Positions 1 to 24,888 of a stretch of DNA of 24,888 nucleotides are shown here, in pieces. The translations under genes were made by a program, and so were the position numbers. The notes beneath the pieces are model-generated. The model had not been told where the DNA came from and did no database searches. It worked only from the letters and a program-made list of their open reading frames with translations. Numbering within the stretch: the first letter of the stretch is position 1; each line of letters starts with the position of its first letter. This DNA is from Paraphysoderma sedebokerense (taxonomy: Eukaryota; Blastocladiomycota; Physodermatomycetes; Physodermatales; Physodermataceae), in contig JAHLJZ010000151.1 in NCBI GenBank assembly GCA_025602915.1, positions 1-24,888 of the forward strand. Reading direction: 5' to 3'.

Positions 1-2484
1 ACAATTTAACCGATTTTTACACTGTAGTCAATGTGACTATTCGTGGTTACGATGTGGATGATACAGAATTGGACTTTTATCTCTCGTCACTCCCAATCCG
101 CGGTGTGCTACTTGACCCATCAACTGGTGACCGTATTCCGGTGAATACTCCTTTTAAGAATCCGAATATTCTATTTAATTCGAGCGGAACTGGTGGGGGT
201 TATCCATATGGTAACTTCACGGTTTATGTCAAAGATCCCCACGGTAGCGAATCGACGCATTGTACTTTTCAATTTGTTCTCACCTGCCCTTCAAGTAAGT
301 ACTGTATATTTCGGTCTTGGAGTCTTTTAACCACTCACGACCCACTCCATTAGGAACGTATGCCAATATATTTAATACCGGTAATAGTAGTATCTGCTCG
401 TCATGGTTTGTATTGAAACTTTTCTCTCTTGTAAGGCGCAAGTCAGACTTTTCTAACCTACCGAAAGTCCCGAAGGAGCATTTTGCTCGCAGTCGGGAGT
501 AGAACCGCCTTCGCCTAATCCAGGTTACTATATGACAACAGATAAGAAATTTCTCCCGTGTATTCCGGTAAGTCAAAATATCTAACCCGACGGCAGGGGC
601 GATTTGTTAACTTTTACCATTGAAGGCTGCCGCATGCACAGGGAATTTGGAGTATCAGTGCAAAATTGGTTATACAGGTGTAAGATGTGGTGAATGCACC
701 GATGGGTATTATAGGCTTAACGGAACATGCAAAAAATGCAATTCCGATGTCCCGGATTGGTTTGTGCCGCTTGTAGTGATATTCGGATTCGTTTGCATTG
801 TTATGCTTTTTGCCTTGATGAAGAGAGGCCCGACGTATGTCTCATTACCTTCAACACACTCATATACTGAGTACTAACTCATAAATGGATATTTAGTCGT
901 GGACTAGTGAATATTGTTGTCAACTTTATCCAAACTGTAGCGGTCTTTGAGCAATTTTTTGTTTCATTGGATTTTTCACCAGCTTTGAAACAAACGTTTG
1001 AATTGCTTGGTGGAGCCCATTTGAATCTAGAATTAGCATCACCAGAATGTGTTCTATCTAAATATCAATTTGGACCCAAATTTGATCTTCGGTATAAGCT
1101 TCAGTTCACGCTTCTCCTGCCACTCTTCATCGCAGCCGCAATCGCACCGGTGGCAATATTCAACAGCTATCCAGCTATTTGGTTGTATCGCAGACTTCGC
1201 GATCTTGTATTGCGAACCTCGTCCGAGATCGATTCAAGGGCTTTGAAAGCGAGGCAGAAGGACATGTTTTTGTTGACCGTGCAAACTTTTAATATGATTC
1301 TAAATATTATATACATTGTATTAGTTTCGCAGTCTCTGACGTAAGTGCCACATCATATCAGCCACACGAGATTTTTAACTAATTCAACTATCGATATAGA
1401 ATCTTTGACTGCACTAAACAGGCAGACGGACAATATTACTTGGGTTAGTGTACACCTCCACTTCTCATGCCACTGAGTATCAAATCTGACATTTACCTAT
1501 TGATTGATACCAGATGCTCAACCTAATGCTCTTTGTTTCAATGATTGGTGGTACGAGTATGCATCTTTGGGTGCAGTAGGGGTCGCAATTTACGTTGTTG
1601 GGATCCCGCTTTATTTCATGATCATGCTTGGGATACTTTATCAATCGACGTTTTATGGGAAATTATGGGTTCGGGCGAAGGAATGGACTTTCATGATTCT
1701 TGATATTGAATCCAGTTACTTCAAGTCAACCCATCAGCACTTTTTGGTGATACAATTCGTCCGTAAATTATTTATTGTCGTGATCAAAATGAATTTAACA
1801 AAGTACGTTGAAAGACCAATTGGAAGTTCCAGATCAAGATGCTAACATACCGGATGTAGATACCCAGTGATGCAAGCGGTGCTTACTACCTGTATTCTCT
1901 GCGTTGATTTATTACTCTCGGCGAAATATCTACCCTATAGTATTAAATCGTTAAATATCCTCGAAGTCGTGTGCACAATGTCTGCTATTGTGGTCATGAA
2001 TTGTGGGCTCTTGTAAGTTGGCGTTCACGGTCGTTATGTTTTTGGTGGACAAATTTCAACTAAAATTTCCTTTTCTCCTCTTAGAATTCATACCAATCAA
2101 TTCGAAACAGAGACACAGCGGGATGCAGTAGCGGTAATCATTTTAATTGTGATTTTCACGTGTATATCGATCACAATTGGTATTTTCCTCCTCGAGGTGA
2201 AAACCAAAATTCAAAATCAAATTATGAAAGGATTAACTGGCCAAAAGGATTTGGATTTCGATGAGAATGCATGGATGAGCAAACAGATTGGGGCCGACAC
2301 TGCACCAACCAAATTGCAGAAAACATCATTCTTACGAAATGCATTAGCCACTATTGGAGGTCAAGGTAAAACTGCAATGTTGAATACTCAACCAATGGAA
2401 AGCCCAGTGGAAGTTTCCAGGGCTCCTTCAACGAAGAGGCACCTTGAAGGGACGAGAAACTCGAATGGCAGTGGGATGATTTAA
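1..2484 (+). CDS. Gene A, 3' part: last cadherin-like repeat, Cys-rich stalk and multi-pass membrane region of a large surface protein
   Basis: The gene enters from the left edge; the first full codon is at 3. Exons: 1-294, 354-405, 468-567, 626-834, 897-1340, 1400-1443, 1514-1802, 1860-2012, 2085-2484 (TAA stop). Every internal exon has exactly the length of its counterpart in gene B, and the frame is open throughout: 660 residues remain. In order it encodes the end of a cadherin-like repeat (YPYGNFTVYVKDP), a GCC2/GCC3-like motif (CPEGAFCSQSG, then PNPGYY), an EGF-like loop (GYTGVRCGECTDGYY), about eight hydrophobic spans (the clearest is ASLGAVGVAIYVVGIPLYF) and a Ser/Thr-rich tail ending SGMI. 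The intron at 406 starts GTTTGT. The part upstream of the window must hold the propeller, TIG and remaining cadherin-like domains if it resembles gene B. This copy looks functional where visible. Ligand and function are unknown. Confidence 0.85.
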
Positions 2485-3778
2485 AATCGTGTAGTTGAAT
2501 GAAGAATTTGCATTGTGTTTTCTTAATTATATTGATATAATTTATTTTATATATAGTATATTTAATATGTTCATATTCATAACCTATTAAATGTGTCATT
2601 GTGACATTATAAATGTATTATGATACGCCATATGTCCGCCTTCATTTTTCGCGTTTTTCAGACACTTCGAACAGCGTAAGGCGATAACTAGAAACAAGTA
2701 TAAGTTACCAACATTTTATGCGTATGCATTCGGTATGATCCATATCCACAAAATTTACCGATCGTTTGAGTTGTAACCTCAAAGCTGAGTCGTTCATATA
2801 ACCTAGCGAGATTTGTGTGCATGTGTGGGTTTTGCCATTCACACCTGTCAACTGTTATTGCATATGAGCGAAACTTTCTCTGATTTAATACAGACATGTG
2901 GAGGATGAGAAGTTTTGTGTCGTAATAGAAGTATTTGCATTATTGCAAAGTGGTTCCAGTCATGTCCGAGACAACACCGCGTTGGCATCTTGCATATAGA
3001 CGCTGGATTTGTCAATCACAAAGACGTGAAGGATGATGCTTCGCACTCAAAGTATTCATATATACTATAAAAAGTCTTGATCGCTACTTTGGAAGTGGTC
3101 ATAAATAACCAGACTTCAGAGGTTCTGCGGCGTTCGAATTGCTTCACTTTGACACCATATGGCTTGCCATCTCCTCGACTGCTCAGTCCACGTATCCTTA
3201 AAATTATTAAGCCTTAACAACAGAAATAGACAGAAAGGTGTGTGTTCTTATCCTGATTTAAAATATTCCTAATCTTTAAGACACTGGAAGGTCTGAGGAT
3301 CAAAATCTGTGGAATAAAGTGTGTGCTGGTCTGTGCAGTAGCAGGAACCTGCTGATTATAATGCTAGAATTCGATTTTTTGAACTGATGTGCACACGTTG
3401 CCAGCTGCCACTGTATTTTTACTGAAAAGTACGCAATACACATTCGATAACTATGATGAGGTATAGCTAATGCAATGCGTCTCAAATTTCATCCATCATC
3501 AGATATATCACACTTTCATCTTGAGACGTGAAGAGACCTGAAGCAGCCGAGTCGCTGGCCACCAGGGATCCCTCACGAAGCACGCCCCATTCCCCACTCC
3601 ATTCCCCAACGTGCGGACTGGTTCTTGGCTGCTCCCTAGCGACGTCAAGTGCGTCAATTGGCATCTTGTGTGGCCAATAATTCGAATTGGGAGAAAATTT
3701 CGTAGAGTTCAGTGACCGACTTCTTTACATCACAGAAGAGCAAGAAAGGCGAAACGTATATATATATCTATCAACTTA
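2485..3778. other. A-B intergenic spacer
   Basis: The first ~150 bases are AT-rich, as expected of the gene A 3' untranslated region, without an obvious AATAAA. The rest is mixed sequence. About 3540-3660 is more GC-rich than its surroundings, and a short TA run (about 3758-3767) lies just ahead of the gene B start; both belong to the presumed B promoter. A minus-strand open stretch of about 60 codons ending at a stop at 3016-3018 has no start near its beginning and no recognisable motif, so I do not call it. I see no tRNA or other RNA gene, and no long repeat shared with the other two spacers. Confidence 0.5.
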
Positions 3779-6700
3779 ATGGTCGGTTTCAATTGGCATC
3801 TGCTCTTGCTCTTCGCGACTTTGGCTCTCCGTTCGGTGCGGGCTCAGAACCCCGTTTCTTGCTTCCTCGCCAGAGTTACCACGGTTCCACTGACGGCTTC
3901 GGATGCTGTTATTATCGATGCAGTATACAATGCTTCGCATTGGGTGGTATTGGACAGCTATTTTAGGTTACATTACTTCACCTATTCGGCTACCACTGCC
4001 TCTCTTGTGCTGACAGCGGACGTATCGTCATACGTAAGAGAGTTCAGAAAATTTTTCTTTGGTATTGAACTGCGCTAATCCAAATATCGTACAGATGGGA
4101 GAGGGTATCGTGGGCAATCTATACCCAACCGACCGGTTTGTTCATTGTAACTGGTTTGTCTGCGTAAAATACCAGGACTGAATCGATTACTTTGACTTCG
4201 ACATGGCATGTCATGCGTTGTAGGTACGGCAAAACCGCTGCTCTTGGAATAAATACAGCTGGGGATGTTTTTGTCGCGGTACAGAACTGTTTCATTGTTC
4301 AATGATTTTTTTTCTTTTCTCAGGATTGACTTCCGAATATTTATTCGTGAGATAGACGTACTCGCCGTTTTCAAAGTCAAAATACAGTCTCAACATTCAT
4401 AAAATAAACCCATCTCTAACTGCAATCTCTACACTCAAGATGGATCAGAAATATGATGGGTTTTGGTCCTCCCAATACAAGAATCCGTAAGTTCTTACTT
4501 ATCATCTCAAAGCAATTTTATCAGTCCTTGACTGCTATTTCATAGACGGATCAAACTTTTCTTGCAAGGCACAAATAATCTTTTTGTTGGTTTCTTCAAT
4601 TATCCGGCCGGAAACGCGAAGGGCATCTGGCTTTCGAGACATCAGTACGGAGGCAGTATTCCTAATCCGAACGACAAATTAACTTTGACGAATCAGAATG
4701 CATACACTATTGATTTTGAATGTAAGAGTGCAACAATCTGTGTTTGGATGAACTCTCGCAGAGTCACGGAGTATAGCATGGCCGGATTTTCGCAAGGCTC
4801 CACCACTGATACTTCAACCACATCACCGGAATTGCAATTTGATCCAGCTATTACATCATCTGCTGTTGGCTCTTACTTTCTACATCATCTGTTGAATGAC
4901 CCTTCACGCTTTGTGGTCCATGGAAGGGATTCAGCTTTTGCGTCTTTAGGGGCTTCCATTTCGCCGTACGTAGTGAATAATGCATTCGATCAATCAAATT
5001 TCGATATACAAGTAGATGGCGGGCAAATTTACGTTGGCTTCACGAGCACTTTGAATTCTTCATTGAGTTTAGGGAACTCAGAAATAGTCATCAGCCAATA
5101 TAGTGGATCGTATCAATTGCAGTCTTCAATTATTTTGTCAACCGTCCGGCTAGATTCTTTGACTCGACTTTTACCTGTCAGTAACAACAAAATCATGGCT
5201 GTTGGTATGACCGAAGGAGATTTGTCAAATCCGACCCTCAATTCAGGTTCTAGAAGGGCATTTGTCGCACATTTCCAATATTTCTGGATTACAACGCTGC
5301 AAACTGCTTCTCCTGGTTTTGTTCGGGGCGGTGAAAATTTTGTAATTGCGTTCTCAAGTCTTCCGAGCTCGGCAACATCAAACACACCGTCAGTGACCCT
5401 CAATGGACGTTCGTGCACTGTGCGAGGCTGGATCGGCCAAAATTTAAATGTGAGCGCTGCGTATGGAATTGGAGGTATGCGTCCGAGTTTGGGTGTAATT
5501 TACGAGGTCATTCCCTAATTCATCAGTTTCAAAGGTCCACATGAATTGAAAATCGCCTTCTCGTACTTGCCGTACTCCCCAACAGTCGTTAATCGAACCT
5601 TGTCGTATCCTCCCCCTGTTCTTCAGAGCATCAATGCAACGCATGGCCCGGCAGGTGAATATATTTTTTTTGGCCGCCCGACCAATGTCTTCTAAACTGA
5701 CTTGTTTGATTAGTTGGATATCCGATCAGATTAGATATTGGCAACTTGGGGCTCATGGGACAAGATTCAGTTGTCGTTACGATTGGAGGAAAGTTATGCC
5801 GATCTATAAATCAGATCGGTATTTCGCAAGTCACCTGTGTAACGCCTGCCGGTATTCTCAATTTCAATATACATGCAGTCTTGATTCAGGAAACAGACTG
5901 ACTTCTTAATAACCGCTGATAGGTACCGGCAGAAATCTTGCAGTCGTTGTCTCTGCGGGCCTCGGATTAAACAGCACTCAACCATTCTCCATATCATACG
6001 ACCCTCCGACATTTTATCAGATAGCACCAGGCTCTGGTCCTACAATAGGGGGGAACGAGGTTGCAGTCCGGTATTTATTAATGATTGATTGTGCCCTGTC
6101 ATGCTGTCTTAACTAACCGATATCTAGTGGGGCGAATTTTGGACCTTGCGCTTCCATGCCTTGCAACTCTGCCAATCATAAAGTATCAGTCACTATCAGC
6201 GGATTACCATGCACGAATCTCTTTCTTTGGGAAGATAACCTTGTTCGTTGCTCAGCCCCACAAGGTGTAGGTGTTGGTCATCCAATTGTCGTTGTTGTTG
6301 ACGGACAACAAGGGGTGAATGGCTCCGTTACATACGGGTACAATATCCCGAAAATCTCTCTTTTAGTCCCATCTACCTCGCTATCCACCAGCCCAGTATG
6401 TTTATGCTTAAATATTACTCTTGAACTTCACTCACCGTAAGATTACCACTAGACTGTGTACATTGAGGGAGACAATTTTGGTTTTGATCCCGCCATGGTT
6501 CAGGTTCTTTTCCGAGAGATAGTGAATTCTACCGTATATCCATGTGAAAGTCTGATTTTAAAATCAAATACTAATGTCCGCTGGTAATTTTATCTATGCT
6601 TCGGTCTATTAATACGGTAATTCATGTTAACTAACCTTTCGTTTCCACAAGTGATTTTGCGAACACACAGCTTCCGAACGATGCGACTTTTAATATTACC

Positions 6701-9700
6701 ATTGCGGTTGCCAATCAGAGCAGTATAATGTCGTCAACAAGCCAATTTCGAACTGGTGTTGCTAATAATGATCCTGTCGTCTATCCATATAACGGCACAC
6801 TTAACGAAGACTCGATCTTAGTTGTCGCGCTTCAAGGGAGTGATCCTGATCCTGGTGATTCTATCACGTTCTTCATTTCTGAAACGACCTCTCAAGGCAA
6901 TTTGTATCAATTTTCATCATCTGCCTTGAATTCGAAGGGGCCTATTGTTGATACAAGCCTTTCGCCGGTGGCAGTTCAAGATTCTTTGGCTCGCTTAGTA
7001 TATATTCCATTCCAAGAGTTTTCGGGGGAAGATTACTTCACTTTCTTAGGTCGAGATGAATCTAATTCCGGTATCTTGTTGTGAATGCTTGCTCCCGGTT
7101 ACATAAAATGTAATATATAAATTATTTTTTAGGATCCACAATTGCGTTTGGTAATATTACAGTCAATCCAGTTGCAGATCCGCCAGTACCGAAACCACTG
7201 AATATTGAAATCAACGAAGACAACGCAACCGTAATCAATTTTGATGTTCAGGATCCTGACACTCCCGATTGGAGTTTGGCAATCATCCTACTGTCAATAC
7301 CGTCACTTGACAAAGGAGAATTGTACGAAGTTGACGATCTGCTCAACCGAGAGTCCAAAATTGCTTCAGCTCCATACAATGTGTCAAATTTTCGCAAGCG
7401 TGTTTTATACGTTCCGCCCTTAAATGCCCATGGGTTGTACTTCACCAGTTTCAGATATCAGGCTGCCGATGAATCTCAGAAGTCGCTGATCAATGCAACC
7501 GTGACGATTTCTATCAACTCCGTGAATGATGTCCCTACAGCAGAGAACAAGTCCTACGTTATGCTTGAAGACAATGAATTAACTATAACATTTGAATGTG
7601 AAGACCCTGACATCGAAGACAAGTTTGCGATACAGATTGAAACTGTTCCTCTACCAGAGGAGGGATCGCTGTATCAGACTGACGTCAGATACCAGGCTCC
7701 GTATGTTTCATACTGCTACTCACCGCGTTTGTTGTTAAAATTAATGTATTTTCTTCTGCAGCATTTATCCCGGAGATCGGCTCTCTCGGGTAGTTGTTCA
7801 ATTCATCCCTGCCGCCAACTATTTTGGAAACACGTCATTCATCTTCCGCTGCGTGGACAATGTCTCAACTTCAGACGCTGCATCCATAAATATAGAAGTA
7901 CGAAACGTAAATGATTTACCGCCAGCCCCTTCGTTCTCCGTGGTATCTGACGAGGATTCAGATGCCATTATCCAATTTGATTTGAGCGACATTGAAACAC
8001 CTGTCGAGAATTTGACTATCATTATAATGGATTTACCCAGACGTGGTATATTGCATTATCCTCAAATAGATAATGGTTCCACTGTTTGGATACCCATAAA
8101 TGATACAGGTTTTGTGGTTCCGGACTTCAATCATACACTCTTGTTCCGACCGCCGCCAGATGCCAACGGCGATCCGTTTGCCGTGTTTCCGTATCTTGTC
8201 GATGATGGCTCTGAATAAGTCCTCGAGTAACGGAACTGTAACAATAACTGTCAATGCTGTAAATGGTTAGTTGCACATGTATTTGCACCGGTCCATTAGT
8301 GACACTAAAATTTTTTGCAGATCCCCCATATTTGGACAAATCAACTTTCTTCAATCTGTCAGTTGAAGAAGATGGAGAGGTTACCATCACAATGAATGTT
8401 CTCGATGTTGATTACGACGGCCGTTTACTGGTGAAAGTACAAGATATTCGTATCAATGGCTCACTGTTTCATGTGAATCGGCGGAATGGAGCCAACAGCC
8501 GACTAGTAGTAGGTGAAGGTAGCGAAATCCTGGGACCCCCCTACCAAGTCATTTATGTTCCCGCAAAGGACTTCGCCTCGACAACTGAAGATACCTCCAA
8601 CGGTTCAACGTGTCATTTTCGGATTCCGGTACAAATAAACATCACAAGTTCGGAAGAAATTGCGTTTTCGGTGACTCCTGTTAATGACGGTCCCAGTATA
8701 GATTGTGACTCGCCCTACATTGTTTTGCCGCAAGACAATTTAACCGATTTTTACACTGTAGTCAATGTGACTATTCGTGGTTACGATGTCGATGACTCAG
8801 ATTTGGACTTTTACCTCTCGTCACTCCCAATCCGCGGTGTACTACTTGACCCATCAACTGGTGACCGCATTCCGGTGAATACTCCTTTCAAGAATCCTAA
8901 TATTCTATTTAATTCGAGCGGAACCGGCGGGGGTTATCCGTATGGTAACTTCACCGTATATGTCAAAGATCCCCAGGGTAGCGAATCCACACGTTGTACT
9001 TTTCAATTTACTGCTACCTGCCCTTCAAGTAAGAGTGTAATTTCTTCTCAATTGTTTGGCTGTCTCCTTGCTTACTATTCCGTCATTCAGGAACGTATGC
9101 CAATATATTTAGTGGTGGTAAAGGCAGTATCTGCGCTTCATGGTGAGCATATTTAACCACTATTGGTACTATAAATGGAAATGGTGACTGTTCTAACCGC
9201 CGAAAAAGTCCCGAAGGAGCATTTTGCTCGCAATCGGGGATAGATCCTCCTGCACCAAATCCTGGTTACTACAAAACGAACGAACAGAAATTCCTTCCCT
9301 GTATACCTGTAAGTTTGCTATATTAAATAGCTATGGAGCTGATGAATTGCTAATATGACACTTACCAGGCTTCTGCCTGTACTGGAAATTTGGAGAGTCA
9401 GTGCGAAGCCGGTTATACCGGCGTTCGTTGCGGTGAATGCTCCGATGGGTACTACAAACTCAACGGCTCTTGCAAACAATGTAAATCTGATGTTCCGGAC
9501 TGGTTTGTACCGCTGGTAGCAATCTTTGGGATAGCTTGTCTCTCAATGCTTTTTGCCTTAATGAAAAAAGGCCCGACGTAAGCCATCTCTTCCTCAACGC
9601 CGAAATTTCAATTCACTAATTGACGTACCGACTGTTAGACGGGGCTTGGTGAACATCATAGTGAACTTCATCCAAACCGTAGCAGTTTTCGAGCAGTTAT

Positions 9701-11209
9701 TCGCCTCATTGGACTTCTCACCACTCTTGAAACAAACGTTTGAAATGCTGAGTGGAGCCCATTTGAACTTGGAGTTGGCATCGCCCGAATGCGTTCTATC
9801 CAAGTACCAGCTCGCTCCAAAATTTGATCTTCGCTACAAGTTGCAATTTACCCTTCTTCTGCCGCTGCTTATTGCAGCCGCCGTCGCTCCGGTCGCAATA
9901 TCCAACAGCTATCCGATTCTTTGGGTGTATCGCAAACTTCGGAGTCTCCTGTTGCGATCCTCAGGTGAAATCGATTCAAGAGCTCTGAAGGCGAGACAGA
10001 AGGATATGTTCCTGCTGACCCTACAGACTTATAATATGATTTTAAATATTATTTATATTGTTTTAGTTTCGCAGTCATTGACGTAAGTACATGTAATTTT
10101 GGCGCATCGATACTGCTGACTTACTTGCTCTCAATTATAGTATTTTCGACTGCACACAAGAGGCAGACGGGCGATATTATTTGGGTAAGGACAATCATAT
10201 GTTTAAAAGTGATGTTTGACTGGAATTAACATTCATACATCTTTCATTAACAAAAAAGATGCTCAACCGAGTGCTTTATGTTTCAACGATTGGTGGTATG
10301 AATATGCCTCTTTAGGAGCAGTTGGGCTCGTAGTTTATGTTGTTGGGATTCCACTGTATTTTATGATTATGCTCTGCGTTCTTTATCAGACTACGTTTTA
10401 CGGGAAACTCTGGGTACGCGCAAAGGAGTGGACTTTCAGTATACTCGATATCGAATCAAGCTATTTCAAACCGACGCACCAGCACTTTCTCGTCATTCAA
10501 TTTATCCGTAAACTTTTCATTGTGGTGATTAAAATGACTCTTACAAGGTGCTTCTATTTTGTGTTTCACTTTAACTGATCATGGCCTAACTTCTCCGTAT
10601 AGATATGTCGTTATGCAGGCAGTTCTCACCACCTTTATTCTCTGTGTTGACTTGCTGTTATCGGCAAAATATTTGCCCTACACCCTTAAATCGTTGAATA
10701 TTCTTGAAGTTGTGTGTACAATGTCTGCCATTGTTGTGATGAACTGTGGGTTGCTGTAAGTAACTTCTTTCACAAGTCATCCATATATCATTTGGCTTAT
10801 CTCTTTACCATTTTGCATTAGAATTCATACACAACAATTCAACTCTACGATTCAACGAGACGCTATGGCTGCTTTTATATTAATTTTGATTTTTGCTTGT
10901 ATTTCAATCACCGTCGGTATTTTCCTGGTCGAGATGAAAATTAAAATTCAGACTCAACTCATGAAAGGTATAACGGGTGAAAAGAATTTTGACGAAAGTT
11001 TTTGGGCGAGTAAACAGATCGGCGTCGACACTGCACCAGCCAAACTACAGAAAACCTCTTACTTGCGAGATGCGTTTGCGCATATTGGAGGTCGCAGTAA
11101 CAGTGCGATATTGAGTCCTCCCGTTGATCATTCAGGCGGAGTCTCGAGGGCTCCTTCTACGAAGAGGCAATTGGATATGTCAGGAAGTTCTGGAAGGGGA
11201 AACATATAA
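3779..11209 (+). CDS. Gene B, complete copy: signal peptide, beta-propeller-like, 4 TIG-like, cadherin-like repeats, Cys-rich stalk, ~8 TM; one frameshift
   Basis: 22 exons: 3779-4033, 4095-4135, 4224-4278, 4356-4486, 4546-5474, 5535-5654, 5714-5851, 5923-6070, 6128-6395, 6453-6583, 6652-7070, 7133-7700, 7762-8265, 8321-9028, 9091-9142, 9209-9308, 9369-9577, 9639-10082, 10141-10184, 10259-10547, 10603-10755, 10822-11209. The start ATG opens a signal peptide (cleavage likely after residue 22, before QNPV). Residues ~23-430 contain VYVG/VVGMT...AFVAHF strands that recall SBBP-type propeller blades. TIG-like folds lie at ~415-775 (GPTIGGNEVAVRGANFG; VTIGGKLCR). Cadherin-like repeats at ~765-1470 carry VND and DPDPGD-type motifs. 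The Cys-rich stalk is at ~1472-1565, with membrane spans from ~1567 to ~1941. The exons sum to 6094 nt, one too many: an extra A near 8214 in exon 13 (504 nt against 503 in C and D) gives a TAA at 8216 after 1219 residues. Downstream the frame is open to 11209. It is either a recent null or soluble form, or a sequencing error. Confidence 0.85.
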
Positions 11210-12209: not shown

Positions 12210-12583
12210 AAAACGAGGAACGATCCCGTTAACTTGATGTCAACCATGTCATTAAGACTAGAGATTTAGAATGTAAACCGTAGGCAGACTTTAGACATCA
12301 GCCTGTAGAGACTTCTTAGAGCAGTCAGCTGGGTGGAGTACATTAATCATTGCAATATAATTCGACCTCAGTTAAGAGCTTATACGTACAATTTTTGCAT
12401 TCTAAAATCGCACGGCAGTTGTTAATCTGGTCTATATGGTCAAGTTAAAATTTCTTCTTAAAGCGGCCGCTTTGGTGGTTACGACTATGGTAGCCTGCTT
12501 GACAACGGCTCAGAACCATGTCCCTTGGTTTCTCGCAAATGTTGCCACGGTTCCACTTACGGCGTCGGATGCATTCATAATCG

Positions 12584-12618
12584 ATGCAGTGAGTTGTGTG
12601 TAGAATTTTGCACTGCAT
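12584..12618. repeat. Small inverted patch / inverted repeat in exon 1 of gene C
   Basis: ATGCAGTG (12584-12591) and CACTGCAT (12611-12618) are inverted copies. The 23 bases at 12596-12618 match, with one mismatch, the reverse complement of the gene D sequence at 20038-20060, which is the orthologous place. This is what a template switch on a short palindrome leaves behind. It introduces TAG at 12601. Confidence 0.7.
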
Positions 12619-13090
12619 CAGGTGGTCTTGGACAGTTATTTCAGGCTCCGCTATTTCACCTATTCGGCCACCACTGCCTCACATGTACGAACGGTAGACA
12701 TGTCCTTGAGAGTAAACAACCTACCAAACTTATTGAACCTACAATGCTGTACTGATCAATGCAATGTAGATGGGCGTCGGAATTGTTGCCCACCCAAATC
12801 TATTGAGCCAGTTTGTATCTATGGCCTTCTGTCTCGCTTTTTATGATGCTCTGGCACTAATGAATCTGACGCAAACAGATCTGACAGAACGGCTTCGCCT
12901 GGAATAAACCCACTTAACGGCGATGTCTTCGTCGCGGTAATTAATTTTTTTTATAAATCGCCAGAAAGATAAATCTCATATAAGCTTGTGCATATAGACT
13001 TATTCGCCATTCGATGGGGTAAAATTCAGTCTCAATCTTCACAGAGTGAGGCCCCTTTGAGAACAATACCTATCCTCGTGTATGCGATAG

Positions 13091-13183
13091 TATTACGGAA
13101 GCCGGGAACCGCCAGCTTCTTTTTTTTGTGTCTTTTTTTGTTCGCTCGCGTAAAATGCTCCGCCACGTAGCGTAGTACGGAAG
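13091..13183. other. Filler DNA at a deletion junction in gene C
   Basis: Left of ~13090 the sequence follows gene D near 20530; right of ~13184 it follows gene D near 21420 (gene B near 5320). The 93 bases between have no counterpart in B or D. They hold two long T runs, a 9-nt direct repeat TACGGAAGC (13094-13102 and 13176-13184), and at the right edge CCGCCACG/CGTGGCGG (13160-13167 and 13184-13191), able to form a stem. It could be end-joining filler, or a small insertion flanked by a 9-nt target duplication. No transposase-like coding. Confidence 0.55.
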
Positions 13184-13607
13184 CGTGGCGGTGAAAATTT
13201 TTTAATTGGTTTTTCTAGTCTTCCGAGTTCGGCGACATTAAATGCACCTTCGGTGATACTCAATGGACGGGTATGCACTGTAAGTGGCTGGGTCGGCCAA
13301 AACTTAAATGTAAGCGCTCCGTATGGTATTGGAGGTATGTGTCCAGCGCTGCCAGTGATATATGAGGTCATATCCTAATAACCTGTACCAAAGGTCCCCA
13401 CCGGTTAACCATCGCTTTCTCGTACTTGCCATACTCTGCGGTAGTCATCAATCGGACACTGTCATATCCCCGACCTGTTATTCAGAGCATCAATGTAACG
13501 CAAGGCCCGGCAGGTGAATATCTATTTGGCATCAGATTAACGACCAGTAACCGACTTGGTTGATCAGTTGGATATTCGATCAGATTAGATGTCGCCAATC
13601 TTGGACT

Positions 13608-16600
13608 ATGGGGCAAGATTCTCTTGTCGTCACCATTGGGGGAAAGCTTTGTCGGAACACAGCTCAGATCAATGTATTTCAACTCACTTGCGCAACGCCT
13701 GCTGGTATATCAGAACCCTTTTTTGTTCTTTGATATATTGGAGTCCAATCTAATTCTTGCTATCCCCAATTCGTAGGGACTGGCAGAAATTTGGCGGTCG
13801 TCGTCTCTGCTGGTGCTGGGTTAAACAGTACTCAATCGTTCAGTGTATCATATGATCCACCTTCTTTTTTTAAAATTGTCCCTGGTTCTGGACCTACTTT
13901 AGGTGGAAACGAAATTGCAATACAGTGAGTGCCTAATATATATTCATTCATGCGAGTCCAGTCATTAACATGAAAACCCAGCGGAAAAAATTTCGGGCCT
14001 TGCGCTTCTGTCCCCTGCAACGCCGCCAATCATAAAGTGTCCGTCACCATTAACGGATTACCATGCACGAATATTCGGCTCTGGGAGGATGACCTCGTTC
14101 GATGTCTTGCTCCCGAGGGTGTGGGTGTCGGCCATCCCATCACGGTTGTTGTTGACGGACAACAAGGACTGAATAACTCCGTCACTTACGCTTACGATAT
14201 CCCGAAAATCTCTCTATTAGTGCCGTCTACCTCACTTTCTACCAATCCGGTAAGACTATGGTATAGATGATTTAATTTAATATATTTCTAATTAGTATTA
14301 CTGCTAGACGGTATATATTGAAGGGGAGAATTTTGGTTCAAATCAATCGTTGGTGCGGGTCAGATTTAGAGAAACGGTCAACTCTACCGTTTATGAATGT
14401 GAAAGTCTTGTTTTAAAATCACATAGTAATGTTCGATGGTAATACTTTATACTTTCCTGCTGGACCTTCAGATGAACCTGACTATATTGTACTCTAGCGA
14501 TTTTACCAATTCGCAGCTCCCGAACTTCGCAACTTTCAATGTCACGGTGGTGGTGGCAAATCAAAGTAGCGTAGTCACATCGACAAATAAATTTCGTACT
14601 GGCGTTGCCAATAGTGACCCCATCGTATTTCCGTACAACGGAACAATGAATGAGGACACAATCCTTGTCATCCTGCTGAATGGAAACGATCCCGACCCTG
14701 GTGATAGCGTCACCTTCTTTGTTTCGAGCACACCGACTCACGGAAATCTATATCAATTTTCCTCGTCAGCGTTGAACTCAAGAGGCCCTATAATTGATAC
14801 AAGTCTGTCGCCGGTGGCTGTTCAAGATCCTTTCGCGCGTCTTGTGTATATCCCTTTCATTGAATTTTCTGGAATGGATGATTTCACTTTTCTGGGGCGA
14901 GATGGATCTAACGCTGGTTTGCTTTCTTCATTATTAACTCGAGTATATGTGAGCATTAACGTTTGGACTGCTTTCTTTTTAGAATCTACTGTTGTTTCTG
15001 GCAATATAACAGTGAATCCAGTCGCAGACCAGCCAGTACCGAGACCACTGCTTATTGAAATTAACGAAGACAACGCCACTGTGATCAATTTTGATGTACA
15101 GGATCCCGACACTCTGGACGGCAATCTTACCGTGATTCTACTGTCGATACCACCGCCCGAGAAGGGAGAATTATACGAAGTGGATGATTTGCTAAATCGG
15201 GAGTCCAAGATTACCTCCGCTCCTTACAATGTGTCGAATTATCGGAAAAGAGTTTTATACGTGCCACTATCAAATGCGTATGGGAATTTCTTCACAAGCG
15301 TCATATATCGCGCCGCCGATGAGTCCCAAATGTCCCTCGTAAATGCGACCGTGACTATTTCTATTAACTCTGTAAACGATGTGCCTACTGCCGAGAACAA
15401 GTCTTACGTAATGCTTGAAGATTCCGACTTAACTATTACATTTGAATGTCAAGACGCTGACGTAGAAGATCGATTTGCTATCCTAATTGAAAGCGTTCCT
15501 CCCACCGAGGAAGGTTCCCTATTTCAGACTGACGTGCGATTTCAGGCTCCGTGAGTTTTCATTCATTTCTCACTTTGCACTTACGCCAGCATTAATTTAA
15601 CTAGTTTTGCTAGCATCTATGCGGATGATCGCCTATCGCGAACTGTGGTGCAATTCAAACCAAGAGAGAACTATTTCGGAAACACTTCGATTAGCTTTCG
15701 CTGCGTCGACAATGTTTCGACTTCGGAGATCGCATTCATAGATATTGAGGTTCGGAACGTAAACGATTTACCGACAGCCCCTTCATTCTCTGTTGTGTCA
15801 GATGAAGATACAGATGTCATCATTCCATTTCCCTTGTCTGATATCGAATCACCTGTCGAAAATTTGACAATCATCGTCATGAATTTGCCCAGACGGGGCA
15901 TTTTGCATTATCCTGTGATGGAAAATGGCTCCATCATTTGGATACCTATGAACGAAACTGGCTTTGTGGTTCCGGATTTTAATCACACTCTCATGTTTCG
16001 CCCACCGCCAGACGGCAACGGGGATCCGTTTGCGGTTTTTCCGTATCTCGTCGATGATGGCTCTGATAAGTCGTCGATCAATGGAACCGTCACCATCATT
16101 ATTAATGCCGTGAATGGTTGGTTTGCCTTTGTTAATATCACATCAGTTTCATATCACCCTAACGGTTTTGGTTTTGCAGATCCACCATCCTTAGACATAT
16201 CATCGCTCTCTAATCTGTCGGTTAATGAGGACGGGGAGCTCACTATCACAATGGATGTTCGGGACGTGGATAACGACAATCGCTTATGGGTGAGAATCAC
16301 AGATATCCGTATCAATGGATCGCTTTTTCATGTCAACCGTCGGACTGGCGCCAATACCCGGCTGGTGGTCGGGGAAGGTAGCGAAATCGTCGGACCCCCT
16401 TACCAAGTCATTTTTGTTCCAAGCAAGGACTTTGCCTCGAACACCAGCGAAACGTACCAACGGTTTAACGTTACTTTTTCGGACACTGGCACCGATAACG
16501 AGACGAATTCCCACGAAATCGTGTTCCCTGTAATTCCTGTAAATGACGCTCCTAGGATCGACTGTAGTTCTCCCTTCATTATTTTGCCACAAGATAAGTT

Positions 16601-16652
16601 AAACATATCGAACACTGTCGTCAATATCACACTTTTCGCCTCTGACGTCGAT
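13608..16652 (+). repeat. 3045-bp tract identical to 21844-24888 (C copy)
   Basis: At constant offset 8236 the exons and introns match base for base wherever I compared them, including five introns read in full. Left of 13608 the two copies differ: C lacks one G, then has scattered substitutions. The tract covers exon 7 (part) to exon 14 (part) of the paralogue structure, that is TIG-like 2 to the late cadherin-like repeats. Its right edge is not visible because the second copy meets the window end. Confidence 0.9.
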
Positions 16653-18526
16653 AAAACTAATTTGGACTTCGTGATTTCTTCGCTCCCGAATCGTGGAATG
16701 CTTGTGGACCCTTCAACTGGCAGCCAGATTTTGCTGAACACTCCTTTCCGAAATCCCAATATTGTATTTAATTCGAGTGGAAGTGGTGCTGGATATCCGT
16801 ATGGCAACTTTACAGTATACGTTAAGGACCCCAGCGGCAGCCGTTCTGCGCAATGCACGTTTCAGTTGACATTCACTTGTACTGCAAGTAAGCACTTCAA
16901 TGAAATCTTCCCTAATTTATCTAAACCGCCACTAATTAACCCTTTCATAGGAACATACGCCAATATGTTTCTATTGACCCTTCAGACTTACAATATGATT
17001 TTGAATATTATTTATATTGTTCTGGTGTCGCAGTCGTTGAAGTAAGTTACACCATTGTGACAGAAATATGTTCTATTCCTTGCTAACTTATCCCAACGTA
17101 GAATTTTTGATTGCACACAGGAGGCAGACGGACAATATTATTTGGGTACGCGAAATCTATTTGTTCAATGCCATTAGTCATTTCTATTCGATCTAACTGT
17201 GCACGTTTGCTAGGATTCGAAATAGATGCTCAACCAAGTGATTGGTGGTACGAGCACGCCCCTATGGGTGCAATCGGACTTGTTTTTTACGTTATCGGAA
17301 TTCCGCTTTATTTCACGATGATGCTCGGTGTACTTTATCAAACTAAATTCTATGGAAGTTTATGTATTCGTGCTAAGGAATGGACATTCAGTATCCTCGA
17401 TATTGAATCAAGTTTTTTCAAGCCGACGCGTCAACATTTTTTGGTCATACAATTGATCCGTAAACTGTTCATAGTCTTAATTAAAATGTTTCTCACAAGG
17501 TATGAACAAGTGTTCTCAAAATTACTAGGTGCAAATTCTAATACGTTACTACAGATACGTCGTGATGCAGGCTGTACTTACAACATGTATTCTGTGCGTT
17601 GATTTGTTGTTATCGGCAAAGTACACGCCTTATTCTGTCAAATCGTTGAATATCCTTGAAGTCATTTGTACAATGTCCGCCATTGTAGTGATGAATTGTG
17701 GGCTTTTGTGAGTTGTCTGTTCCCTTGTGACTTTGTAAGAAAGGCTTCGCTAATATCGCTTTCGCCTCATTTAGAATTCATATTGGTCAATTCAGATCCG
17801 AATCTGACCGAACGGCAATGGGGGTTGTTATCTTGATACTGATTTTCACTTGTATTTTGATGACCATTGGCATATTCCTTATCGAAATGAAAACCAAAAT
17901 CCGGAATCAACTCATGCAGGGTGTAATTACTAGACAAAGTGTAGATGATAGCGTCTGGATGAGCAAGCAGATTGGCGGTGATGCCGCGCCATCCAAGTTA
18001 CAGAAAAGTTCACTATTGCGGGATGCGCTCGCGACTATCGGGCGTTGCAGTAACAGTGGTGTTTTGTTCACTCAACCGATGGAAAGCCCTGGTGTACTAA
18101 GGCCCACTTCCACCCAAATGTACCCTGAGGCTGCGCATAAGTCTAGTAGTAGTGGAATGTTACAAAGAATTTGAACATCACGCAAACGATATTTAAATCT
18201 GTTTTAGATGTACATATAAACTTGATCTTATCCGTTCATAGAGTCTTAATCGTAATAAATTAATTCTCAACTCTAAGTTTCTCCTAATCTAGGATTCAGA
18301 AAAACTCTAGCAGATTAATATATAGCTCTTTTTTATATCAAAAGCAGAAGCCCTTCGTACCGGGAATATTGAAAACTCTCCTGTGAATTACCCAATGCCT
18401 CAAATCCAAGTAAAAGGCAGTGGCAATATCATTGGAAAGTCCTTGCTATTAAAAAGTCAAATACTTGCTCTACGTTTGTGTATTGCGTTTGTTTGCAAAG
18501 TGGATACTCAACAGCAAACTATTTGC

Positions 18527-19415
18527 AAAAACCAAAAATCCCTACAGGCGCTGTTATAGGAATAGAAACTCTCCATGCGACTGCTCGCGCCAAAAGGGGT
18601 TCATAACCATTGCTTTCTGCCATCTCAATGATTTCCATCACTATATCCTCTCCTTTCAATTCCTACATTGCGTTAAACGGTAAGCTAGCCACATACTATC
18701 TGAGCAATTGACATCATATGATGGATTACAACATTTCTGTTTCAACACCGCGAGCATAGTACGGGTAGACTTTCCATTTTCAGACGACTTCGTAAATCCT
18801 TAGCTATATTGGTTTGCTTGCAGGCTTCTTTGAAGGCTTTATCGATCCCAGAGATTGTAAACGAAATGCTTACCTTTGTTCCGTATCCTGTATTGAACAC
18901 GCGACTACAAGTACTGCTTAGCAGATGAAAGGCCAATATCTTTCCCACTTTTTATATCCATGTGTTATCTATCCTATACGTATTACATATCTTGTTCTAA
19001 CATGGAACTTTCTATTTGTCCTAGTCGACTCTCTCAATTCTCAGTAATACGATGTTCCAAAAGCTTTTGGATTTTCTCAACTTATTCTCCAGTTTCCATA
19101 TAGATGGCCACAGCGTATGTCACATTGTACTCTCGATATCTCGAAGACAGAAGTGTTCTTCTTGTAATAAGCCTGGGAAGTGGCAGTCTGGAATTGAATA
19201 TCTTCTATGTTTTCTACTTCTTGACTTAAATATGAGAAGAAATCTTATTCATTGAAATGGATTATCAGCAGAAAACTATTTTTATAGGATTCTCAACGAT
19301 CGCTACCTTGCATCAACGCAAATTCTATCAAATCATTTTGCAACATCCTCACAAGCATATTAAGTGAATGCTTTTTGCCTGACAATATTTGATATCCAGT
19401 GTTCAGTAGTGTCAC
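18527..19415 (-). other. Unrecognised protein-like open stretches on the minus strand, possibly a decayed or intron-split gene
   Basis: Read on the minus strand, several short open stretches have protein-like composition: 19293-19415 (40 codons, includes MLVRMLQNDLIEFALMQGSD), about 19077-19244 (includes TSQAYYKKNTSVFEISRVQ), 18742-18948 (includes GIDKAFKEACKQTNIAKDL) and about 18527-18668 (includes EIIEMAESNGYEPLLARAV). They lie in different frames with stops between them and I could not find a convincing set of splice sites. I do not recognise the family. It is the only hint in the window of anything other than the + strand array, and it could be chance. Confidence 0.25.
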
Positions 19416-19667
19416 CTAGTGTTTATGTCTGTAAACAGTTGATTAACTAAGTAATTAAGGTAGCACCTCATTAAGGTTTTCATAATCATGACGAATCGAC
19501 GATTGCAGACATGGCAGTTCTCTGCGTCTCCCACGTTCAGTCCCTTACGCGATTAGACGCAATTATATCCGCCCAGGCCTCGAACAGACCTCGAATTCTA
19601 TTATCTGTCAGTGTCGATGGTCAATGTCGCTCGAGCAGCCGAGCAGTAGCCGAGCTCACTCGAATCC

Positions 19668-19700
19668 TCGATAGTCGATATATTGCTCGAGATCAGTCCT
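19668..19700 (+). promoter_or_regulatory. Upstream block shared by C and D (D copy)
   Basis: TCGATAGTCGA (19668-19678) and GCTCGAGATCAGTCCT (19685-19700), 184 bases before the gene D start. It matches the C block with one substitution in the second word and a spacer seven bases shorter. Nearby GCTCGAG and CCGAGC words repeat. Gene B lacks a recognisable copy. Confidence 0.4.
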
Positions 19701-19883
19701 ACTTTAGACAATCCCGTTTCTTCAACGTCAAACATATCATGGAATCAAGTTTTAATGCTCAATCCCCCATCCCGACACTCTTCGGAGTTGTCCCCTGCAA
19801 AATACATTAACCAGACTGAATAAGTTCGCCAGGCCGCAACTCATTCCTAACACCTATTTTCCATATACGAGAGACTTCATTAA

Positions 19884-22800
19884 ATGCTTATGGGCGAGTT
19901 CAAATTCCATCTTCAAGCGACTGCTTTGGTCTTAACGATTATGGTACTCTGTTCGACGTTGGCTCAGAACCATGTCCCTTGGTTTCTCGCAAATGTTGCT
20001 ACGGTTCCATTTACGGCTTCGGATGCATTCATAATCGATGCAGTGCATAATTCTACACACTGGGTGGTCTTGGACAGTTATTTCAGGCTCCGCTATTTCA
20101 CCTATTCGGCTACCACTGCCTCGCTTGTACGAACGGTAGACATATCTTCAAAAGTAAGCCTAGCTACCAAACTTCTTGAGGCTAGAATAATGTACTGATC
20201 CAATAAAGTATAGATGGGTATCGGAATTGTCGATCATCCAAACTTAAAAAGCCAGTCTGTACTTTTACCATATGCGTTGCTTTTCTCTGTTTCTCTTGTA
20301 TTAATGAGTTATTCGCAAATTAGATCCGACAGGACAGCTTCACTTGGAATAAATCCACTTGGCGACGTCTTCGTCGCGGTAATTTTTTTATTTTAAGTCG
20401 GCAGCAAGATAAATCTCATATAACCTTTTGTGTATGTAGACTTATTCGCCATTCGCACAGCAAAGATTCAGTCTCAACCTTCACAAAGTGAGGCCATTTG
20501 AGAGTTCCACCTATACTCGTGTGTACGACGGCAGGGATGATCCGTTTTGGAACTCCCAGTACAGAAATCCGTATGTTTTAATTTGTTAATATCGGTAACT
20601 TGACAAATGTCCACAGCTAATTAGTCCTTGTTAGTCGACTTAAGCTTTTCTTCCAAGGCACAAGTAATCTCTATGTCGGTTTTTTAAATTATCCAGACGG
20701 AACAGCGAAAGGAACATGGTTATCGAGGCACCAGTACAGCGCAACCGGTATTCCCGATCCAAACAACAAACTACCTTTAAACAATCAGGAGGCATTCGCA
20801 ATTGATTTTGAATGCAAAAATGCAGCCACGGTTTGTGTATGGACCACCTCACGTAGGGTTATCGAATACTCCACGCCCGGTTTTACCGGAGGAACAACCA
20901 CCACTACTCCAGATACCTCGCCCGCGTTACAATTTGATCCAGCTATCGCCACTTCTGCTGGTAATTCCTATTTTTTCCACCGAATGCCCAACGAAACTTC
21001 ACGCTTTATAGTCCACGCGAGAAACTCTGCTTTTGCCTCATTGGGAGGCACGACCCCGCCATACATTGTGAACAACGCTTTATATTCATCAAATTCAGAC
21101 GTTCAAGTAGACGGCAACCTAATTTACGTTGGCTTCACGAGCATTTTAAACTCTTCTTTGGGTTTAGGAAATTCAGAAATAGTCATCAGCCAGTATAGTA
21201 GATCGTATCAACTGCAATCTTCAATTATTTTGTCCACTGCCCGCCTAGATTCTTTGACTCGGCTTTTACCGGTCGGTGGAAACAAACTCATGGTTGTTGG
21301 TATGACCGAAGGAAATCTGTCAAACCCGACCCTCATTTCTGGAAATCGGAGGGCATTCGTGGCACACTTCCAGTATTTTTGGATTACAAGCCTGCAAACA
21401 GCTTCGCTTGGGTCTGTCCGTGGTGCTGAAAGCTTTTTAATTGGGTTCTCTAGCTTTCCAAGTTCAGCAGCGACAGGTACACCGTCGGTGACACTCAATG
21501 GACGCGCATGCGCCGTAAGAGGGTGGGTCGGCCAAAACTTAAATGTAACGGCTCCTTCTGGTATTGGAGGTATGTGTCCAGCGCTGCATGTGATATATGA
21601 GGTCATATCCTAAACACCAGTACCAAAGGTCCCCACCGGTTAAGCATCGCTTTCTCGTACTTGCCATACTCTCCGGTAGTCATCAATCGCACACTGTCAT
21701 ATCCCCCACCTGTTATTCAGAGCATCAATGTAACGCAAGGCCCGGCAGGTGAACTAGTTATTTTTCGCCCGATCAATGACCTTTAAACTGACTAGGTTGC
21801 AGTTGGATATCCGATCAAATTAGATGTCGCCAATCTTGGACTGATGGGGCAAGATTCTCTTGTCGTCACCATTGGGGGAAAGCTTTGTCGGAACACAGCT
21901 CAGATCAATGTATTTCAACTCACTTGCGCAACGCCTGCTGGTATATCAGAACCCTTTTTTGTTCTTTGATATATTGGAGTCCAATCTAATTCTTGCTATC
22001 CCCAATTCGTAGGGACTGGCAGAAATTTGGCGGTCGTCGTCTCTGCTGGTGCTGGGTTAAACAGTACTCAATCGTTCAGTGTATCATATGATCCACCTTC
22101 TTTTTTTAAAATTGTCCCTGGTTCTGGACCTACTTTAGGTGGAAACGAAATTGCAATACAGTGAGTGCCTAATATATATTCATTCATGCGAGTCCAGTCA
22201 TTAACATGAAAACCCAGCGGAAAAAATTTCGGGCCTTGCGCTTCTGTCCCCTGCAACGCCGCCAATCATAAAGTGTCCGTCACCATTAACGGATTACCAT
22301 GCACGAATATTCGGCTCTGGGAGGATGACCTCGTTCGATGTCTTGCTCCCGAGGGTGTGGGTGTCGGCCATCCCATCACGGTTGTTGTTGACGGACAACA
22401 AGGACTGAATAACTCCGTCACTTACGCTTACGATATCCCGAAAATCTCTCTATTAGTGCCGTCTACCTCACTTTCTACCAATCCGGTAAGACTATGGTAT
22501 AGATGATTTAATTTAATATATTTCTAATTAGTATTACTGCTAGACGGTATATATTGAAGGGGAGAATTTTGGTTCAAATCAATCGTTGGTGCGGGTCAGA
22601 TTTAGAGAAACGGTCAACTCTACCGTTTATGAATGTGAAAGTCTTGTTTTAAAATCACATAGTAATGTTCGATGGTAATACTTTATACTTTCCTGCTGGA
22701 CCTTCAGATGAACCTGACTATATTGTACTCTAGCGATTTTACCAATTCGCAGCTCCCGAACTTCGCAACTTTCAATGTCACGGTGGTGGTGGCAAATCAA

Positions 22801-24888
22801 AGTAGCGTAGTCACATCGACAAATAAATTTCGTACTGGCGTTGCCAATAGTGACCCCATCGTATTTCCGTACAACGGAACAATGAATGAGGACACAATCC
22901 TTGTCATCCTGCTGAATGGAAACGATCCCGACCCTGGTGATAGCGTCACCTTCTTTGTTTCGAGCACACCGACTCACGGAAATCTATATCAATTTTCCTC
23001 GTCAGCGTTGAACTCAAGAGGCCCTATAATTGATACAAGTCTGTCGCCGGTGGCTGTTCAAGATCCTTTCGCGCGTCTTGTGTATATCCCTTTCATTGAA
23101 TTTTCTGGAATGGATGATTTCACTTTTCTGGGGCGAGATGGATCTAACGCTGGTTTGCTTTCTTCATTATTAACTCGAGTATATGTGAGCATTAACGTTT
23201 GGACTGCTTTCTTTTTAGAATCTACTGTTGTTTCTGGCAATATAACAGTGAATCCAGTCGCAGACCAGCCAGTACCGAGACCACTGCTTATTGAAATTAA
23301 CGAAGACAACGCCACTGTGATCAATTTTGATGTACAGGATCCCGACACTCTGGACGGCAATCTTACCGTGATTCTACTGTCGATACCACCGCCCGAGAAG
23401 GGAGAATTATACGAAGTGGATGATTTGCTAAATCGGGAGTCCAAGATTACCTCCGCTCCTTACAATGTGTCGAATTATCGGAAAAGAGTTTTATACGTGC
23501 CACTATCAAATGCGTATGGGAATTTCTTCACAAGCGTCATATATCGCGCCGCCGATGAGTCCCAAATGTCCCTCGTAAATGCGACCGTGACTATTTCTAT
23601 TAACTCTGTAAACGATGTGCCTACTGCCGAGAACAAGTCTTACGTAATGCTTGAAGATTCCGACTTAACTATTACATTTGAATGTCAAGACGCTGACGTA
23701 GAAGATCGATTTGCTATCCTAATTGAAAGCGTTCCTCCCACCGAGGAAGGTTCCCTATTTCAGACTGACGTGCGATTTCAGGCTCCGTGAGTTTTCATTC
23801 ATTTCTCACTTTGCACTTACGCCAGCATTAATTTAACTAGTTTTGCTAGCATCTATGCGGATGATCGCCTATCGCGAACTGTGGTGCAATTCAAACCAAG
23901 AGAGAACTATTTCGGAAACACTTCGATTAGCTTTCGCTGCGTCGACAATGTTTCGACTTCGGAGATCGCATTCATAGATATTGAGGTTCGGAACGTAAAC
24001 GATTTACCGACAGCCCCTTCATTCTCTGTTGTGTCAGATGAAGATACAGATGTCATCATTCCATTTCCCTTGTCTGATATCGAATCACCTGTCGAAAATT
24101 TGACAATCATCGTCATGAATTTGCCCAGACGGGGCATTTTGCATTATCCTGTGATGGAAAATGGCTCCATCATTTGGATACCTATGAACGAAACTGGCTT
24201 TGTGGTTCCGGATTTTAATCACACTCTCATGTTTCGCCCACCGCCAGACGGCAACGGGGATCCGTTTGCGGTTTTTCCGTATCTCGTCGATGATGGCTCT
24301 GATAAGTCGTCGATCAATGGAACCGTCACCATCATTATTAATGCCGTGAATGGTTGGTTTGCCTTTGTTAATATCACATCAGTTTCATATCACCCTAACG
24401 GTTTTGGTTTTGCAGATCCACCATCCTTAGACATATCATCGCTCTCTAATCTGTCGGTTAATGAGGACGGGGAGCTCACTATCACAATGGATGTTCGGGA
24501 CGTGGATAACGACAATCGCTTATGGGTGAGAATCACAGATATCCGTATCAATGGATCGCTTTTTCATGTCAACCGTCGGACTGGCGCCAATACCCGGCTG
24601 GTGGTCGGGGAAGGTAGCGAAATCGTCGGACCCCCTTACCAAGTCATTTTTGTTCCAAGCAAGGACTTTGCCTCGAACACCAGCGAAACGTACCAACGGT
24701 TTAACGTTACTTTTTCGGACACTGGCACCGATAACGAGACGAATTCCCACGAAATCGTGTTCCCTGTAATTCCTGTAAATGACGCTCCTAGGATCGACTG
24801 TAGTTCTCCCTTCATTATTTTGCCACAAGATAAGTTAAACATATCGAACACTGTCGTCAATATCACACTTTTCGCCTCTGACGTCGAT
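19884..24888 (+). CDS. Gene D, 5' part, intact: signal peptide, propeller-like, 4 TIG-like and cadherin-like repeats
   Basis: Exons: 19884-20153, 20214-20254, 20324-20378, 20440-20570, 20635-21569, 21629-21748, 21803-21940, 22013-22160, 22218-22485, 22544-22674, 22734-23152, 23219-23786, 23850-24352, 24416 to the edge. They total exactly 1400 codons with no stop. A second ATG at 19890 (MGEFKFHLQATALVL) aligns better with the starts of B and C and may be the true start. The signal peptide probably ends before QNHV. Propeller-like strands include GDVFVATYSPF, GNLIYVGFTS and VVGMTEGN...AFVAHFQYF. TIG-like and cadherin-like domains follow as in B. Exon 13 is 503 nt, so the D exon has no B-type extra base. 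The intron after exon 2 begins GTCTGT, supported by phase agreement with B and C. From 21844 on it is identical to gene C. The Cys-rich stalk and membrane region should lie just beyond the window. Confidence 0.85.
21844..24888 (+). repeat. 3045-bp tract identical to 13608-16652 (D copy)
   Basis: Second copy of the identical tract, offset +8236. It begins inside exon 7 of gene D and continues to the last base of the window, so its length is a minimum. In D it sits in a frame that is intact on the left; in C the same tract is preceded by a one-base loss. Confidence 0.9.

Follow-up and report, generated by a model that had tools for sequence, protein, structure and literature searches.

The window that we analyzed is a stretch of 24,888 bases, which constitutes the complete contig C151 of a eukaryotic genome assembly (27.3 Mb in 195 contigs). 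It contains four genes, A to D, which lie on the plus strand, as do all other features of the window described below. Gene A is represented by its 3′ part (1–2484), with its 5′ part residing in another contig, C13. Gene B (3779–11209) was modeled ab initio with 16 exons encoding 1747 amino acids. Gene C extends over 12436–18174 according to alignments and ab initio models. Gene D begins at 19884, and its ab initio model stays open as far as the contig end at 24888.

The proteins encoded by genes A–D are predicted to begin in a signal-like manner, to carry cadherin-like repeats, and to have several hydrophobic stretches in their C-terminal part. We scanned eight exon pieces against Pfam, two of which gave matches above the cut-off, namely Cadherin_4 (63 bits vs. 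a cut-off of 25.1), Ig_SibA (60.7 vs. 27), and Big_9 (39.2 vs. 23.6). The extracellular repeats of C and D thereby resemble the bacterial cadherin-like or tandem-95 repeat proteins of these families, whereas the two genes are intron-bearing and eukaryotic and encode a C-terminal multi-helix part with no Pfam match at an E-value of 0.1. Likewise, none of 7988 scored protein candidates matched the C-terminal membrane region from the model of gene B at an E-value of 0.001. In a protein search with the extracellular repeats, 273 of the 7991 scored proteins matched; the identity of the best match was 29%, over 54% of the query. Where the 120 matches listed carry a given name, they are bacterial repeat proteins or simply hypothetical proteins.

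A first-pass annotation, made from the letters of the window, had proposed that parts of genes C and D are the same at every base. This was borne out by base-by-base alignment, as BLAST of the window against itself aligned 13608–16652, in the middle of gene C, with 21844–24888 in gene D at 3045 identical bases out of 3045. The two writings of this exact tract are arranged in tandem and in the same orientation with homologous left flanks, have a period of 8236 bases, and are separated by a unique stretch at 16653–21843 (coordinates from the alignment). Four introns of gene D are predicted inside the tract by the ab initio models. The longer BLAST alignment that includes the tract (13184–16652 against 21419–24888) contains 48 mismatches and seven gap openings, none of which falls inside the tract. 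The left flank at 13208–13607 shows identities of 78, 91, 96, and 85% per 100 bases from left to right, which confirms the earlier observation that the sequence immediately left of the tract differs by substitutions and indels. The left boundary itself is a sharp edge formed by a one-base indel, with D one base longer, behind which another 24 bases are identical (13584–13607 vs. 21819–21842). Gene B is far more different, as had also been noticed, with approximately 71–73% identity to C and D. At 88% identity, roughly that of the near flank, 3045 consecutive matches would occur by chance with a probability below 1e-150 according to our own arithmetic. Among the best-scored candidates in the whole genome, the tract gave eight matches, two of them at 100% and the other six at 69–72%. 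Short-period tandem repeats were discarded as a cause, Tandem Repeats Finder having returned zero rows in the window.

The tract was correctly described as running into the window edge: contig C151 itself ends at 24888, and with the window spanning the entire contig, the right edge of the tract is out of sight. In an assembly-wide search, the last 55-mer of C151 was found at two positions, 16598 and 24834, so that the last 55 bases of the second writing recur elsewhere only at 16598–16652. The same search over all contigs found no second exit from the tract end.

Judging from its sequence, gene C is probably decayed, that is, a pseudogene, because two pieces are missing and a one-base shift affects the gene at the left edge of the tract. 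BLAST shows that it lacks approximately 0.8 kb present in D (13081–13184 vs. 20522–21419) and approximately 0.9 kb present in B (16841–16963 vs. 8982–10004). The size of the second lack was taken from the BLAST pieces, and a global alignment, which placed a 906-base gap at the edge, was discarded. Any decay inside the middle of gene C would be masked by merging in the assembly.

Fixed end overlaps mark the branch points of de Bruijn graphs; with SPAdes the overlap equals k, for which the default is 55. Exact end overlaps of this fixed length, 55 bases, are found at the start of C151 as well as at C65 and C181. The first 55 bases of the window (1–55) are a maximal exact match to 8735–8789, the last 55 bases of another exact tract of 1427 bases (see below), and occur also at C13:7364–7418 on the minus strand. 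The longest other paralogous exact run in the window, the tract excluded, has 48 bases. One 55-mer forms the start of C65 and both the start and the end of C181 (13,397 bases); C181 is an assembly-graph loop, a tandem or circular element. The exactly 55 shared end bases, repeats longer than k forming one node, and a stretch present at two contig ends are common to our assembly and SPAdes-like de Bruijn assemblies, whereas two overlaps differ and count against an untouched k = 55 graph. The end of C13 sits 56 bases, not 55, inside the 1427-base tract, and the far end of C93 agrees with 17373–17427 in gene C at 54 of 55 bases and then diverges from base 56 on, as though the 3′ part of a gene were missing in front of it. 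In a proposed order C13, C151, C93, gene D would be expected to pass via a short fragment into this end of C93.

We also compared 40 contig starts (200 bases each) and 20 contig ends (70 bases each) out of the 195 contigs, a sample too small for a rate; C80, whose start reads N, was omitted from the second end comparison. Shared 55-mer ends were found for C181 only, which counts against the graph reading, although most partners would lie outside so small a sample. C70 and C130 of the same sample have 93 bases in common, located away from their very ends. Wherever seen, contig numbers follow descending size down to the last contig, C195, with 10,333 bases. The continuation of C151 may be absent because contigs below approximately 10 kb were perhaps dropped from the assembly.

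Entire stretches are also written at two contig ends. The first 7418 bases of the window (1–7418) are identical to C13:7418–1 on the minus strand at 7418 of 7418 positions. The ends of C13 and C151 thus coincide over 7418 identical bases, yet the two contigs were left unjoined. Reversed C13 consists of a first unique piece, the 1427-base tract, and a second unique piece, and C151 consists of the second unique piece, the tract, and a third unique piece; piece two (1–7418) is therefore written twice, once per contig, and C13 reversed followed by C151 is probably the true order. Similarly, the end of C57 matches C128 at all three points read, in a single register (95/95, 276/276, and 98/98 bases), implying that C57:147311–156752 and C128:56–9497 are the same sequence of approximately 9.4 kb, doubly written. 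Against the graph reading, the first 55 bases of C128 have no in-register match to C57, with 35 of them matching at an offset of 43 bases to the left. The exon in the stretch shared by C57 and C128 belongs to a distant relative of the C/D gene family. False duplications reported for genome assemblies likewise consist of a stretch present twice, at contig ends; in the portion of that report considered here they stem mostly from haplotypes and read errors in larger genomes (PMC9516828), whereas a repeat node is the likely cause in our case.

Two further exact tracts of the family have both edges visible. The 1427-base tract at 7363–8789, shared between gene B and the gene upstream, equals C13:7364–8790 on the minus strand, and its flanks show per 100 bases 78% identity on the left and 92%, then 59%, on the right. 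The second, of 1052 bases, is shared between C13:9504–10555 and C93:66145–67196 (coordinates converted from reversed strands), with flanks of approximately 75–91%. The paralogues around the tracts are approximately 57–93% alike per 100 bases, with a few intron windows lower, down to 48%. Both tracts are exact islands within diverged homologous flanks, and their sequences look like the products of interlocus gene conversion, for which closed islands are typical and which whole-unit duplication cannot yield. By analogy, interlocus gene conversion is the likeliest cause of the near-identity of C and D too, because these two other family tracts show both edges in diverged flanks. Several exact islands per family in diverged flanks are likewise a feature of interlocus conversion of tandem paralogues as presented in part of a paper that gives mean conversion tracts of approximately 200–500 bases in yeast and rodent experiments (PMC3924818). 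All three tracts found here (3045, 1427, and 1052 bases) exceed these experimental means, which counts against conversion, and their exactness carries the same caveat of being limited by assembly merging. In homologous coding sequence, four bases separate position 8789, at which the 1427-base tract ends on the right, from position 16652, the corresponding end of the 3045-base tract.

The lengths of exact matches were counted by comparing three stretches, with low-complexity matches dropped. Among 78 matches of at least 25 bases, 53 have 25–34 bases, 14 have 35–44, seven have 45–54, one has 55–56, none has 57–999, and three have at least 1000 bases; one 54-base match is a cut piece of a doubly written stretch, and the 1427-base tract entered the count as 1426. 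The gap at 57–999 bases fits a smoothing of longer near-identities, but the numbers are small and it may be due to chance.

We consider it probable that the 3045-base tract is a single de Bruijn repeat node written twice, overlying two real copies that were homogenized, probably by recent conversion; both parts of this explanation, an assembly node and homogenized paralogues, are of known kinds. In de Bruijn graphs, repeats that reach or exceed k in length are collapsed (PMC6061703, in part), and SPAdes collapses bulges, by which isolated differences between near-identical paths are removable (PMC6736328, in part). Judging from the end signatures, the contig path would enter a short-read de Bruijn node with 55-base overlaps twice, from the left flank of C at 13607 and again from that of D at 21843, writing the same letters in each pass. 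We infer the k = 55 graph logic behind this path from the contig ends. The unique stretch at 16653–21843 would then be a graph loop leading from the end of the repeat node to its start, and the contig would stop where the path exits the repeat into a continuation missing from the assembly. The DNA most likely holds two real copies, a view favored by the different left flanks and by the gene D model, which remains open across the junction. Their similarity probably derives from interlocus conversion that took place recently between the tandem paralogues, in analogy to the other tracts of the family. The assembly would smooth out minor differences between C and D; therefore, 100% is an upper bound on their identity. 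Since such a graph stores any exact repeat above length k as a single node, C and D would share their letters and their identity is not separately measured. Zero differences between letters written from one node thus represent no measurement, and an age estimate from 0 differences over 3045 bases is void here. The argument of the first-pass annotation that intron identity cannot be due to selection holds as reasoning, but it carries less weight than it seemed to because the letters of C and D are not independent.

A recent unequal exchange that duplicated the whole repeat unit of 8236 bases, with C and D as its copies, would also account for the tandem arrangement in the same orientation and for the homologous left flanks, and its right edge could lie beyond the contig. 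However, such a duplication should leave all 8236 bases identical and a branch at the unit end, whereas the contig stops after 3045 bases, at what would be a branch point if this end resembles the other ends of the cluster. The intervening stretch (16653–21843) carries the 0.9-kb lack of gene C just right of the tract, and the closed 1427-base tract between neighboring units cannot be a whole-unit duplication. We regard this origin as unlikely. About as unlikely is a single real copy, its second writing owed to an erroneous path or to chimeric reads that join paralogues. That the assembly writes 1–7418 and the end of C57 twice, and that the second writing of the tract ends together with the contig, would be in line with a single copy. 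Yet the two writings of 1–7418 keep the same neighbors on the shared side, whereas the left flanks of C and D differ; the gene D model runs on as an open frame over the junction at 21844, and the 1427- and 1052-base tracts of the family lie in flanks that are distinct on the left as well as on the right.

Gene conversion could also have truly left at least 3045 identical bases with the assembly playing no part, as the sharp left edge and the closed tracts elsewhere in the family would suggest. This account appears highly improbable, as the contig end coincides exactly with the tract end, the contig ends bear the 55-base signatures, and none of the 78 exact matches falls at 57–999 bases, the pattern that smoothing would give, albeit possibly by chance. 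Conversion, unequal exchange, and reads used twice had been the three candidates of the first-pass annotation. Doubly written sequence is seen in C151 itself, because window positions 1–7418 recur, reversed, as the first 7418 bases of C13, a doubling that the 55-base end overlaps account for, and conversion is retained as the favored cause of the similarity; the duplication of a whole unit is the candidate that lost ground. With a repeat node entered twice as the preferred explanation, a fixed end overlap together with doubly written contig ends can serve as a quick test wherever paralogues in draft assemblies are surprisingly identical, before any conversion is dated.

The gene family holds at least three long homogenized tracts. 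We find it unlikely that they reflect frequent segment exchange that reshuffles a cluster of cadherin-like surface proteins, both inside the array and across contigs, with edges recurring at one coding place, a reading based on two edges (8789 and 16652), of which one is a contig end. If true, this reshuffling would serve to generate diversity in a receptor-like family. The last exon of the family has 11 matches in the genome, among which C13:4938 and position 2017 of the window are one doubly written stretch, as are C57:155621 and C128:8366. Three weaker last-exon matches with 38% identity are located on the other strand of C13 (297242–313542), and by their sequences they appear to be a more distant group of the C/D gene family.
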